From contig QEVV01000002.1 of NCBI GenBank assembly GCA_003228115.1, forward strand, positions 1 through 64,000: a stretch of 64,000 nt of DNA. Reading direction: 5' to 3'. Position 1 is the stretch's first letter; every line of letters starts with the position of its first letter. Under the pieces are notes generated by a model. It saw only the letters and a list, made by a program, of their open reading frames with translations, ran no database searches and was not told where the DNA came from. Below, piece by piece: positions 2,903 to 33,265 of the stretch. A program made the translations under genes and the position numbers. This DNA is from Chloroflexota bacterium (lineage in GTDB: Bacteria > Chloroflexota > Dehalococcoidia > Lucifugimonadales > SAR202-VII-2).

Positions 2903-3808
2903 ATGGAGTGGTTGCTGCTGTCTGTTTTGAGCACTCTGTCCTTTTCTGCCTACACCATCCTCCAGAAGCTGACGTTCCAGAGATACCTAGGCAACGTCTT
3001 CGCATACGCCTTCTTGGGCGCCGTCCTTCACCTTTCCATCGCCGTTGTCATCCTTCTTCTTGATCCTGTTCGCATCCCATGGACGTCTGGGCCGTTCCTG
3101 ACGATACTGACGGCTGGCCTGATCCACGGTTGCTTCACCCTCATGATGTTCACTGTTGTCCAAAGGGAGCCCGAGGTGACCCGGGTCATGCCCGTCATTG
3201 ATACCTACCCTATCTTCGTCGCCGTCATGGCTGTTCTCTTCCTTGGGGAAGCCTTCACGGTGCCCACATTCCTAGCCGTCGGTCTGGTCGTCGGCGGAGC
3301 GCTTGTCGCTTCCTGGCACAGGGGCTTGCCTGGAGAGAGAATCAAACAGGCGCGCACCTTGCTCATTATGATCGGGGTCAGTTTTTGCATCGGCGTCTAT
3401 ACCATACTGTCCAAGTATGCCCTATCAGGGCTCGACATCTGGCAGGCGTATGCTCTATCCAGCATCGCCTCTGCGCCGGTCTTTGCACTGGCCGTTCACC
3501 ATTTCCGGGCCTGGCCCGACGTCCGTCGCGCCCTCGCTCAGCCCAAGGTGGTGGCGATAGCGGCCTCAGGGCACTTCATGCTCTTCCTGGCCTTCATCGT
3601 CGGACTGCTGGCGTTCACAATGGGGCCCGTGACCCTATCCTCCGCCGTGATGGCATCCCGGCCCTTGGTCGTGTTGGGCTATGTAGCCGTAATCAACGTT
3701 GCCTTCCCCAATCTGATGACGGAGCGGTTAATGGGAAGCGGCTTCCTAAGAAAGGGATTGGCAGCGGCGATGGTCACTGCGGGGGTCGGAGCTATGGCCT
3801 TTGTTTAG
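2903..3808 (+). CDS. EamA/DMT-family transporter
   Basis: An integral membrane protein of about 301 residues with ten predicted hydrophobic helices in two five-helix halves, the layout of the drug/metabolite transporter (EamA) superfamily. The first half ends with the typical FLGE-x-F pattern (AVLFLGEAF) that precedes TM5 in EamA domains. The ATG at 2903 is preferred over ATG 2882 because AAGGG (2891-2895) lies at good spacing before 2903, while 2882 has no ribosome binding site. Substrates in this family range from amino acids to nucleotide sugars and cannot be predicted here. It is convergent with the minus-strand gene at 3833, with only 24 bases between stops. Confidence 0.88.
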   Translation: MEWLLLSVLSTLSFSAYTILQKLTFQRYLGNVFAYAFLGAVLHLSIAVVILLLDPVRIPWTSGPFLTILTAGLIHGCFTLMMFTVVQREPEVTRVMPVIDTYPIFVAVMAVLFLGEAFTVPTFLAVGLVVGGALVASWHRGLPGERIKQARTLLIMIGVSFCIGVYTILSKYALSGLDIWQAYALSSIASAPVFALAVHHFRAWPDVRRALAQPKVVAIAASGHFMLFLAFIVGLLAFTMGPVTLSSAVMASRPLVVLGYVAVINVAFPNLMTERLMGSGFLRKGLAAAMVTAGVGAMAFV

Positions 3809-28948: not shown

Positions 28949-29042
28949 CCGAGCTTCATCTAAGCTAGGGCGCCACCGATCGCCGGAGCATCGCGTCCTC
29001 CCCCCTCTGCGTCCACCCCCTATCTCTTGCCCCACCTCAGCA

Positions 29043-29066
29043 GCCTCGGTACAGTAGCACCGAGGC
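29043..29066 (+). promoter_or_regulatory. Hairpin covering the ribosome binding region of the carboxyltransferase gene
   Basis: Perfect 8-bp inverted repeat GCCTCGGT (29043-29050) / ACCGAGGC (29059-29066) with an 8-base loop, ending 5 bases before the ATG at 29072. The only SD-like stretch, GAGG, is inside the right arm and would be masked when the stem forms. A regulatory role is inferred. Confidence 0.4.
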
Positions 29067-29071
29067 CAGCT

Positions 29072-30679
29072 ATGGAAATCATCCAGACGAAAATCGATCC
29101 GCACAGCTCCGAGTTCAAGGAGAATCAGGTGCGCATGAGCGCCCTGATGGCGGAACTCAAGGGCGAGCTAGCCCAAGCCAGAAGCGGTGGGAGCGAACGA
29201 GCCACTGAGTTGCACAAGAGCCGTGGCAAGCTCGTCGTGCGAGACCGGATTGAGCGTCTCTTAGACCCTGGAACACCCTTCTTGGAGCTCAGCCCTCTGG
29301 CCGCTTGGGGCATGTATGAGTGGGAAGCCCCTTCGGCTGGCATCGTGACCGGCATTGGCGTCGTCCACGGGAGGGAAGTGATGGTGGTGGCCAACGACGC
29401 TACCGTGAAGGGCGGCACCTACTATCCAGTCACAGTAAAGAAGCACCTACGGGCCCAGGAAATCGCCCTTGAGAATCGCCTGCCCTGCATCTACCTGGTC
29501 GACTCCGGCGGCGCTTTCCTTCCCATGCAATCCGAGGTCTTCCCAGACCGCGATCACTTTGGCCGCATCTTTTACAACCAAGCCCGCATGTCGGCCCTTG
29601 GCATCCCGCAGGTCGCGGTGGTCATGGGCTCCTGTACAGCGGGCGGCGCTTACGTCCCTGCGATGAGCGACGAGGTTGTCATCGTGAAGGAACAGGGGAC
29701 CATCTTTCTGGGGGGTCCACCGCTCGTGAAGGCCGCCACCGGTGAAGACGTGGATGCGGAGACCCTGGGCGGCGCAGATGTCCACACGAGAGTGTCGGGT
29801 GTTGCCGACCATTACGCCCAGGACGATGACGATGCCCTTGCCATCGCACGGGACATCGTCGAGAACTTCGTCACGCCAAAGCACCTACCATTCGAAGTGC
29901 AAGAACCGGAGCCGCCTCGCCACGACCCCAGCGAGCTTTATGGCGTGGTGCCGGCAGATGTCCGGCGATCCTATGATGTGCGCGAGGTCATCGCCCGCAT
30001 CGTGGATGGGAGCCGGTTCCACGAGTTCAAGGCCAATTACGGTGAGACTCTTGTCTGCGGCTTTGCCCGGATATGGGGCTATCCGGTTGGCATCGTAGCT
30101 AGCAACGGCGTGCTGTTTTCTGAAAGCGCCCTCAAGGGCACCCACTTCATCGAGCTATGCAGCCAGCGCCGCATCCCGCTGGTCTTCCTTCAGAACATCA
30201 CCGGCTTCATGGTGGGCCGCCAATACGAAGCTGGTGGCATCGCCAAGGACGGCGCCAAGATGGTGATGGCGGTTACCAATGCAGCGGTTCCCAAATTCAC
30301 GGTCATCATCGGGAGTTCCTTCGGCGCAGGCAACTACGGCATGTGTGGGCGCGCCTACCAGCCACGGTTTCTGTGGGCGTGGCCCAACGCCCGCATCTCT
30401 GTCATGGGGGGCCAGCAGGCCGCCGATGTTCTCCTCGCCGTGAAGCTCCAGCAGCTCGCCCGCCAGGACGAAACGATGACTCAGGAAGAACAGCAAGCCT
30501 TCCAACAACCGACCTTGCACAAATACGAAGAGGAGGGAAACCCCTACTACAGCAGCGCCCGCCTCTGGGACGACGGCATCATTGACCCTGCCGACACCCG
30601 CACGGTACTGGGGCTCGGTATTTCGGCTTCGTTAAACGCCCCCATGCCGGAGCCCGGTTGGGGCGTGTTCCGGATGTGA
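29072..30679 (+). CDS. Acyl-CoA carboxylase carboxyltransferase (methylcrotonyl-CoA carboxylase beta-like)
   Basis: Transfers CO2 from carboxybiotin to an acyl-CoA. The 535-residue protein has two crotonase-like halves. The first carries [21 protein letters not shown] and [17 protein letters not shown], a pattern typical of methylcrotonyl-CoA (and geranyl-CoA) carboxylase beta subunits rather than propionyl-CoA types. The second contains [23 protein letters not shown] and [12 protein letters not shown]. The family-consistent start is ATG 29072. It is followed, after a transposase insertion, by the biotin carboxylase and biotin carrier genes, so together they make one carboxylase, probably in leucine or branched-acyl catabolism. 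Confidence 0.9.
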
Positions 30680-30703: not shown

Positions 30704-30727
30704 GGGCGTTCAGTTGAGCGCCCCTAC
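30704..30727 (+). repeat. REP-like palindrome, copy 1 (upstream of transposase)
   Basis: Imperfect palindrome with core GGGCGTTCAGTTGAGCGCCC (30704-30723). It differs from the other two copies by two bases in the centre. It lies 25 bases after the carboxyltransferase stop and 39 before the transposase start, and a partial extra GAACGC arm precedes it. Confidence 0.8.
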
Positions 30728-30766
30728 AAGTCCCCATACAACCACCCCGACCAAAATACCGCTACC

Positions 30767-31633
30767 ATGAAATTTGATCCCGACATCCACCATCGCCGTT
30801 CAATCCGCCTGCCTGGGTATGACTATGGGCAGGATGGAGCATACTTCTTGACTCTCGTGACGTGGAACCGAAAAATGTTCTTTGCCGAGGATGCAGCGAA
30901 GGCCATCGCCGAGGATTGTTGGCTCGCTATTCCCCAACATTTTCCCGCAGCAACGTTGGACGGCTGGGTCGTGATGCCCAACCACATACATGGCATCGTC
31001 GTGATTGACGCGGCGGGTAGGGGCGTTCAATTGAACGCCCCTACGTTGGCCGAGCAACAAGGCCGGCTTAGTCGTAATAACACTCCATTTTCGGCGATGT
31101 CTCCTAATGCGCACACGTTAGGCACATTAGTGCGCACCTACAAAGCTGCCGTAACCACCCGATGCCGACGTTCCGGTTTTGACGAATTTCGATGGCAGCG
31201 CAATTACCATGAACGAGTCCTCCGCGACGATGCTGAGCTGAATCGAGCTAGGGAATACATCCTGTCCAACCCCATGCAATGGAATCAAGACAAGGAAAAC
31301 CCGGCCGCTTTCGAAGTCAGATTAGAGAGGGGGGAGGCGCGCTCGCCTGCATCCGACCCTAGGTGGGAGCACATCTTCCAACGCATCCCGGCATTGAACG
31401 CCTTGGACCCAGAAGCCCGCGAGCAGGTGATGTCCCGCTGGCTCAACAAATACCTGAGGGCTGTGATGCAAGCGGAGTCTCAGGAGTGGGAGAATAGAGC
31501 CTGGCTGGCTCTGTACAGCTACCTGACGTACCCTTTCAGCGCCCGCAAGCCCTTCAGCCTTGCTCCTAGCGAAGCCGATGCCGTAATCGCCTCCTTTCAA
31601 GAGGAGGTTCAGCAACTAAAAGCAAGGGGGTAG
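30767..31633 (+). CDS. REP-associated tyrosine transposase (RAYT, IS200-like HUH fold) with long C-terminal extension
   Basis: A 288-residue single-strand DNA transposase of the Y1/HUH class. It has the HUH motif in MPNHIHGIV (His73, His75), the catalytic tyrosine block QRNYHERVLRD (Tyr147) and the family's AREYILSNP. Typical RAYTs end near here, at about 170-180 residues; this one continues another 110 residues with no recognised domain. A REP palindrome lies inside the frame and encodes residues about 84-93. The stop codon lies in a third copy. It stands between carboxylase subunit genes on the same strand. Codon choice is not sharply different. A domesticated, non-mobile role is usual for RAYTs. 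Confidence 0.9.
   Translation: MKFDPDIHHRRSIRLPGYDYGQDGAYFLTLVTWNRKMFFAEDAAKAIAEDCWLAIPQHFPAATLDGWVVMPNHIHGIVVIDAAGRGVQLNAPTLAEQQGRLSRNNTPFSAMSPNAHTLGTLVRTYKAAVTTRCRRSGFDEFRWQRNYHERVLRDDAELNRAREYILSNPMQWNQDKENPAAFEVRLERGEARSPASDPRWEHIFQRIPALNALDPEAREQVMSRWLNKYLRAVMQAESQEWENRAWLALYSYLTYPFSARKPFSLAPSEADAVIASFQEEVQQLKARG
31017..31064 (+). repeat. REP-like palindrome, copy 2 (inside transposase coding region)
   Basis: A perfect 28-base palindrome (31017-31044) with core GGCGTTCAATTGAACGCC, followed by CGTTGGCCGAGCAACAAG, which is also similar in copy 3. It is in frame and adds about ten residues between the HUH and Tyr motifs. Confidence 0.9.
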
Positions 31634-31678
31634 GGGCGTTCAATTGAACGCCCCGGCGTTGGCCCGGCAACGAGAATC
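31630..31678 (+). repeat. REP-like palindrome, copy 3 (over transposase stop codon)
   Basis: Perfect 22-base palindrome (31633-31654), core GGCGTTCAATTGAACGCC, and a similar flank CGTTGGCCCGGCAACGAG. The transposase TAG (31631-31633) is in the repeat's first bases. With copy 1 it flanks the transposase gene. Confidence 0.88.
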
Positions 31679-31762: not shown

Positions 31763-33265
31763 ATGTTTTCACGAGTCCTCATAGCTAACCGCGGCGAGAT
31801 AGCCGTCCGGATACAGCAAACGCTGCAAGCGATGGGCATCGCTACTGTGGCTGTCTATGCTGACCCAGACATCTCTGCTCCCCACGTTGCGATGGCCAAT
31901 GCGGCCTACCCCCTCCACGGCGATTCCGCAAAGGACACCTACCTCAATGTCGGTGAACTGCTTGAGGTCGCGCGCGAAAGTGGGGCGGAAGCAGTGCATC
32001 CTGGCTACGGCTTCTTATCTGAGAGTCCCGCCTTCGCCCGGGCGTGCGCGGCAGCAGGCCTTGTCTTCATCGGGCCGACCCCGGACAGCATGGAAGCCCT
32101 CGGGGACAAGGTGCGTTCGAAAGAAATCGCTGCCCTGGCAGGTGTGCCAACAGTGCCAAGCAGCGCCGTCCTTGATGGCGTCGGCGCTGATGCTCAGGGA
32201 TTCGTTGAGCAATGGGGGTTCCCCCTTCTGGTAAAGGCGGCCGCTGGCGGAGGCGGCCGGGGCATGCGGCTCGTCGATGGGCCTGATCAGTTAGCGCAGG
32301 CCTTGGAAAGTGCCTCCAGGGAAGCTCAGGCAGCTTTCGGGGACGGCCGCGTTTTCCTGGAAAGGTACCTGCAACACCCCCGTCACATAGAGTTCCAAAT
32401 CCTCGCCGATGGAAGAGGCCACGTCATTCACCTGCTGGAGCGTGAATGCAGCATCCAGCGGCGGCACCAAAAGCTCATCGAGGAAACGCCGTCCCCGGCG
32501 ATGTCCCCCGATTTACGCAGGCGGATGGGCGAGGCGGCGGTAGCCCTTGCGAAGGCGGCGGGCTATGTTAACGCCGGTACGGCGGAGTTCCTCCTGGATC
32601 CTGACACCGAAGAATTCTACTTCCTGGAAGTCAACGCACGGCTCCAGGTTGAGCACCCTGTTACCGAGGCCATTCTGGGCATGGACATCGTCGCTTGGCA
32701 GGCACGAATCGCCGCCGGGGAGGCCTTGGATATCGCTCAGGAAGATGTCCGCTCATTAGGGCATGCCATTGAGTGCCGCATCTACGCCGAAGACCCCTAC
32801 AGCGGCTTTCTGCCATCGACGGGACGATTGTTGCGATGGAGGCCGCCCACTGGGCCCGGCCTCCGCCTCGACAGCGGCGTGGATGAGGGATACGACGTGT
32901 CCAGCCACTACGACGCCCTTCTCGCCAAGCTCGTCGCCTGGGGACCGGACCGGGAAGCCAGTCTGAAGCGAATGGAAGGCGCCTTGCGGCGTTTCCCGGT
33001 GTTGGGACTGGTGACCAACGTGCCGTTTCTGCGCAGGGTGGTGACCCACTCCGGCTTCACTACCGGCGCTTACAACACCGCGTTCCTTGATGACAATCCC
33101 GACTTGCTTCAGGCTCCACAGATCACCGAGAAGGATGAGGTCGCCAGATCTCTGGGAGCCTGGGCAACGGCAAATCGTACTTCCACGGCGGCTCGCTCGC
33201 CAAGTCTGGCTCCCGTTGATGACGGCAGTCCATGGCGGCAGGCAGGCCCACGGAGACTACCGTGA
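31763..33265 (+). CDS. Biotin carboxylase subunit of acyl-CoA carboxylase
   Basis: ATP-dependent carboxylation of biotin. The 500-residue sequence has the N-terminal VLIANRGEIAVRI, VHPGYGFLSE, the glycine-rich ATP loop KAAAGGGGRGMR, HIEFQI, ERECSIQRRHQK and the catalytic EVNARLQVEHPVTE. A biotin carboxylase normally ends near residue 450; the last 50 residues lead toward the BT-type linker of fused alpha subunits. Its TGA overlaps the GTG of the next gene (GTGA). The gene is thus the first half of a split methylcrotonyl/propionyl-type alpha subunit. The carboxyltransferase gene lies upstream, past the transposase. Confidence 0.93.
   Translation: MFSRVLIANRGEIAVRIQQTLQAMGIATVAVYADPDISAPHVAMANAAYPLHGDSAKDTYLNVGELLEVARESGAEAVHPGYGFLSESPAFARACAAAGLVFIGPTPDSMEALGDKVRSKEIAALAGVPTVPSSAVLDGVGADAQGFVEQWGFPLLVKAAAGGGGRGMRLVDGPDQLAQALESASREAQAAFGDGRVFLERYLQHPRHIEFQILADGRGHVIHLLERECSIQRRHQKLIEETPSPAMSPDLRRRMGEAAVALAKAAGYVNAGTAEFLLDPDTEEFYFLEVNARLQVEHPVTEAILGMDIVAWQARIAAGEALDIAQEDVRSLGHAIECRIYAEDPYSGFLPSTGRLLRWRPPTGPGLRLDSGVDEGYDVSSHYDALLAKLVAWGPDREASLKRMEGALRRFPVLGLVTNVPFLRRVVTHSGFTTGAYNTAFLDDNPDLLQAPQITEKDEVARSLGAWATANRTSTAARSPSLAPVDDGSPWRQAGPRRLP

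Follow-up and report, generated by a model that had tools for sequence, protein, structure and literature searches.

A REP-associated tyrosine transposase (RAYT) gene, recognized by its motifs and predicted fold, carries a copy of its own REP palindrome in frame within its coding sequence, and REPs recur at the same site, the loop between the HUH and tyrosine motifs, in RAYT genes of many phyla. The gene lies in a window of 64,000 nucleotides, the whole stretch of DNA that was analyzed (contig QEVV01000002.1 of a Chloroflexota bacterium, positions 1 to 64,000 of the forward strand). Named relatives place its source in the class Dehalococcoidia. We give about even credence to the explanation that we prefer, in which RAYT activity seeds the cognate REP in the enzyme's own gene, and REP and alpha-3 helix together serve as a specificity cassette that RAYT genes can exchange. 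The features of the locus are:

29027 to 30679, plus strand: carboxyltransferase gene upstream of the RAYT gene, adjoining the biotin carboxylase gene in relatives without the insertion
30704 to 30727, no strand assigned: REP copy 1, degenerate, upstream of the gene, with 2 mismatches in the 18-bp core, the left GTAG missing and the CTAC end kept
30767 to 31633, plus strand: open reading frame (ORF) of 288 residues, comprising the RAYT (about residues 1-185) and, in frame, a small Dehalococcoidia protein (about residues 196-288), from family model, fold and domain comparison
30983 to 30991, plus strand: HUH motif H73-I74-H75, read from the sequence and invariant in alignment A1
31017 to 31044, no strand assigned: REP copy 2, a perfect 28-bp palindrome (GTAGGGGCGTTCAATTGAACGCCCCTAC) with 14-bp arms, in frame, encoding residues 84-93
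31022 to 31102, plus strand: loop of residues 86-112, predicted to be disordered (pLDDT below 50), containing most of the REP-encoded residues
31118 to 31171, plus strand: helix of residues 118-135 with invariant K126, the predicted positional equivalent of TnpAREP alpha-3, from alignment, predicted structure and core-prediction tests
31205 to 31207, plus strand: catalytic tyrosine Y147 in WQRNY, read from the sequence and invariant in alignment A1
31352 to 31630, plus strand: fused C-terminal domain of about 95 residues, a stand-alone protein of about 100-130 residues in other Dehalococcoidia
31630 to 31654, no strand assigned: REP copy 3, overlapping the gene end, its GTAG providing the TAG stop codon at 31631-31633
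31763 to 33265, plus strand: biotin carboxylase gene downstream of the RAYT gene

The ORF scored 66.7 bits against the NCBIfam model NF047646 (REP_Tyr_transpos), for which the cutoff is 80, and gave no match in a Pfam search; the profile of alignment A1 scored E. coli RayT at 41 bits. The best PDB match of the predicted structure (mean pLDDT 74) was 4er8, the E. coli RAYT with a REP hairpin (E 3e-6, TM-score 0.61 by target length), followed by IS200/IS605 transposases. The gene encodes a RAYT with putative REP binding and cleavage activity. A preliminary description had called the gene a RAYT, but the ORF holds more than that: its last 95 or so residues are a separate small protein.

All three palindromes that had been described as flanking or interrupting the gene were found, compared with 0.03 matches in window shuffles at the same mismatch tolerance. 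Copy 2 is perfect and in frame between the HUH and tyrosine motifs, as had been noted, but is longer than stated, and the inner insertion is tolerated; the overlap of copy 3 with the stop codon also stands. Across the 2.78-Mb host genome, the 22-bp core occurred within 3 mismatches at 54 sites (none for the reversed-pattern control), and the pattern GTAGGGGC(N11-14)GCCCCTAC at 36. The palindrome is thus abundant elsewhere, contrary to the refuting condition set in the preliminary description. When 15 of the pattern sites were sampled, the reading frame stayed open for 180 bp to either side only at the RAYT-internal one and at none of the other 14. Copy 2 is a genuine GTAG REP, being GTAG-tagged, present in many copies and mainly extragenic as a family, and as an in-frame member it does bear on how REPs spread, as first proposed. 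The same genome also contains a second REP family, GTAGGGGCGTTTAATTAAACGCCCCTAC, with at least 8 copies (e.g., L243, L245, L254), which is not accompanied by a second RAYT gene; each of its arms departs from the REP of the RAYT by a single base.

In order to follow the insert beyond the window, we compiled 209 distinct RAYT genes from class homologues, named genomes of many phyla (using HUH/Tyr seed patterns) and an even phylum draw, and scored a loop palindrome at 10 or more net paired bases within the HUH-Tyr loop. A REP palindrome was present in the loop of 108 of the 209 genes, about half having no intact internal REP, and the positive genes were spread over 17 of 21 phylum-level groups. 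There were 114 palindromes in 41.9 kb of loop, compared to 1 in 46.8 kb of N part and 3 in 23.1 kb of C part (2.72, 0.02 and 0.13 per kb, respectively), while the 300-bp flanks had 1.01 and 1.20 per kb. In a first version of the set 110 of 211 loops were positive, versus a mean of 0.35 and a maximum of 3 after dinucleotide shuffling; this and the window shuffles rule out a chance palindrome. A separate held-out set gave 37 positive genes of 87, with 2.4 palindromes per kb of loop and none in the N and C parts, and recurrence in both sets rules out a one-off curiosity or an assembly artifact. Even loops without an intact palindrome contained a half-REP 8-mer in 66 of 101 cases, compared to 24 after codon shuffling.

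Sampling bias from a query that itself bears the insert was tested with an even Chloroflexota draw, in which 46 of 108 RAYTs had an internal REP, and by ranking Chloroflexota RAYTs on a loop-free score, where the successive quartiles of 27 held 17, 17, 6 and 6 positives. The trait is therefore commoner in RAYTs near the window gene, yet not confined to them. On a loop-free tree the minimum number of changes was 44 for presence, 17 for phase and 78 for core, relative to 70, 32 and 94 with shuffled labels; there are fewer changes than with shuffled labels but still many, so the internal REP is partly inherited and turns over rapidly. The comparison of relatives with and without the insert, proposed in the preliminary description, thus found it to differ in core, phase and presence, which rules out a fixed insert ancestral to all homologues.

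Several RAYTs have further REP-derived sequence. Two neighboring RAYT paralogues at locus L160 (3451-3671 and 1239-1279) carry 15-bp half-REP units repeated in tandem within the loop, at 14.7 and 2.7 copies (TRF), which encode VGAKN repeats. The C-terminal tails of some RAYTs are also REP-derived repeats (L160 at 3013-3153, and the 3' ends of L095 and L167). In L387 and L388 (genomes G621 and G609), profile matches several hundred bases apart in one open frame suggest very long HUH-Tyr loops.

The insert is a REP rather than a peptide motif. We found 59 distinct internal cores, read in phases 0, 1 and 2 in 74, 39 and 1 cases; phase 2, which is nearly absent, is the one where GTAG would make an in-frame TAG. 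Internal and flanking palindromes were identical over the central 18 bases in 41 of 62 genes, where permutation gave a mean of 1.8 and a maximum of 7. That the REP-encoded residues are useful to the protein, with the palindrome as a by-product, might be suggested by the insert being in frame and by 106 of the 108 REP-carrying domains lacking an in-frame stop. This is nonetheless very improbable, as the encoded peptides are unrelated in sequence (VQLN, TACR, GSRT, GLKP, AQHA and others), a single palindrome yields unrelated peptides in its two phases (RGTACRAPT in L052, VGARHAVPL in L108), and disorder is predicted for the loop. Where the GTAG ends are altered, they change symmetrically on both arms, to GTCGGGGC in L050, L134 and L144 and to GCAGGGGC in L145, L152 and L186; the flanking copies of L050 retain unaltered TAGGGGC arms.

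The preferred explanation would have the following steps. The window RAYT is of a kind that has perfect GTAGGGGC...GCCCCTAC palindromes as its REPs. Its cognate REP sits in what appears to be the sole disordered loop able to accommodate such an insert, which runs from the HUH strand to alpha-3, the helix that in the solved homologue binds REP DNA. RAYT activity near its own gene may deposit cognate REPs in and around that gene, and among coding insertions only those in the loop (and tail) would survive. The REP and alpha-3 helix would then make up a compact specificity cassette that could be moved between RAYT genes by recombination, so that a new recognition helix would come together with its target.

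A simpler rival, and still a serious one, shares the insertion in cis but assigns the REP no function: RAYTs would scatter REPs near their own gene, those landing in the coding sequence would survive only in the disordered loop or the tail, and any match to the helix would reflect linkage. We regard this as a real if tentative possibility, below either form of the cassette reading given here. The flanks are also REP-dense (1.0-1.2 per kb), as are tails, and REPs are reported to be concentrated near tnpAREP genes (PMC8266576); the predicted disorder of the loop and the fast turnover of presence (at least 44 tree changes, versus 70 with shuffled labels) fit as well. Internal palindromes were no more intact than flanking ones (89 of 92 versus 63 of 67, p=0.46), a result that gives no sign of selective maintenance and counts against the preferred explanation, as does the fact that about half of RAYTs have no intact internal REP. 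A first count had hinted that internal copies were better preserved, but the difference vanished when only REP-like palindromes were included. On the other side, REPs are 2-3 times as dense in the loop as in the flanks, and the helix is a better predictor of the core than the remainder of the protein, which is linked just as closely.

In E. coli TnpAREP, K82 of alpha-3 touches the REP stem (PMC8266576). The helix at residues 118-135 of the window RAYT corresponds to alpha-3 by position, and residue-level equivalence is suggested by the alignment. The loop REP lies about 20 codons (about 60 nt) upstream of alpha-3. After control for the remainder of the protein, similarity of the REP core followed similarity of the helix across 107 genes (partial Mantel 0.355, permuted maximum 0.09). 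In leave-one-out prediction, taking the nearest gene by helix gave 4 or more of the 5 core bases correctly for 80 of 104 genes, and taking it by the remainder of the protein did so for 45 of 104; in held-out genes the same threshold was reached in 22 of 33 and 16 of 33, respectively (permuted mean 4.0, maximum 12). Candidate pairs of helix and core are PLGRLIGAFKTVSTK with GGTTC, GLPEIVRxFKTFS with GGGTT, SIPTIVRSFKSA with ACGGC and TIGSIVRGFKIG with GAAAA. The core thus follows the adjacent helix much more closely than it follows the remainder of the protein.

Because the REP and helix are physically linked, their covariation could be due to co-inheritance. Genes without an internal REP serve as a control: the helix predicted their flanking core to 4 of 5 bases in 13 of 31 cases, versus 7 of 31 for prediction from the remainder of the protein and a maximum of 8 under permutation. 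Exact 5-base matches were equal, at 4 each, and in two versions of this test with poorer core registration the helix did no better than the rest of the protein, so the control is suggestive only. Some gene pairs are mosaic, which favors the preferred explanation; one such pair from a single genus (L142 and L177) shares 85% DNA identity in the N part and 92% in the C part, with loops and helices that differ and a REP in one that is absent from the other.

An internal hairpin could also act in the gene or its mRNA as a putative operator through which the RAYT limits its own synthesis. The copy 2 region folds strongly as both DNA (z -5.8) and RNA (z -6.0), and the internal copy matches the cognate REP. 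We think autoregulation unlikely, however, as many RAYTs have no internal REP and the known substrate of TnpAREP is single-stranded DNA.

Two aspects of the locus are specific to the window gene. The C-terminal domain, which had no Pfam match and no second copy elsewhere in the host genome, is encoded as a stand-alone homologue at L046-L049 and in 9 relatives, and among the 209 RAYTs is fused only here. In two relatives only about 51 and 117 bp separate the neighboring carboxyltransferase and biotin carboxylase genes, so the unit bounded by REPs has been inserted here into an acyl-CoA carboxylase operon.

The window RAYT shares with described RAYT/TnpAREP REPtrons (Nunvar 2010, PMC2817692; PMC8266576; 4er8) the HUH and tyrosine motifs, the fold, flanking REPs, the GTAG tag and genome-abundant REPs. 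In those REPtrons the REPs lie outside the gene, whereas the window RAYT has one copy within it. The HUH and tyrosine motifs of E. coli RayT are separated by only about 35 residues, and its coding sequence contains no palindrome. IS200/IS605 transposases (IS608, ISDra2) resemble RAYTs in having a related fold and in recognizing hairpin DNA. Their recognition hairpins lie beyond the transposase coding sequence, at either end of the element. Such insertion sequences are multi-copy and self-mobile, whereas this genome has a single RAYT gene. REPs within genes and GTAG-derived stop codons have already been described by Di Nocera 2013 (PMC3733652), and the GTAG REPs reported there and Rickettsia RPE elements are likewise short in-frame coding palindromes with GTAG-supplied TAG stops. 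Those elements occur in varied genes and mostly at different sites, in contrast to the one recurrent site and the gene's own REP family in RAYTs, and the passages of PMC3733652 consulted do not mention RAYT genes among REP-bearing genes. A search of open-access article texts turned up no account of a REP within a RAYT gene, though an earlier mention is possible.

How RAYTs recognize perfectly palindromic REPs has been stated to be open, with alpha-3 contacts speculated (PMC8266576). Since the likely target of each enzyme can be read from its internal REP, pairs of helix and core can be tabulated from genomes, and these are directly testable with chimeras. A broader reading is that such RAYTs are self-labelled by a cassette of loop REP and alpha-3, that the recognition code may be readable from sequence, and that a RAYT that changes specificity or host would bring its own first REP; we consider this plausible, although its prospects fall somewhat short of even. 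REPs are not strictly extragenic, and the internal copies indicate where new REP families may be seeded.
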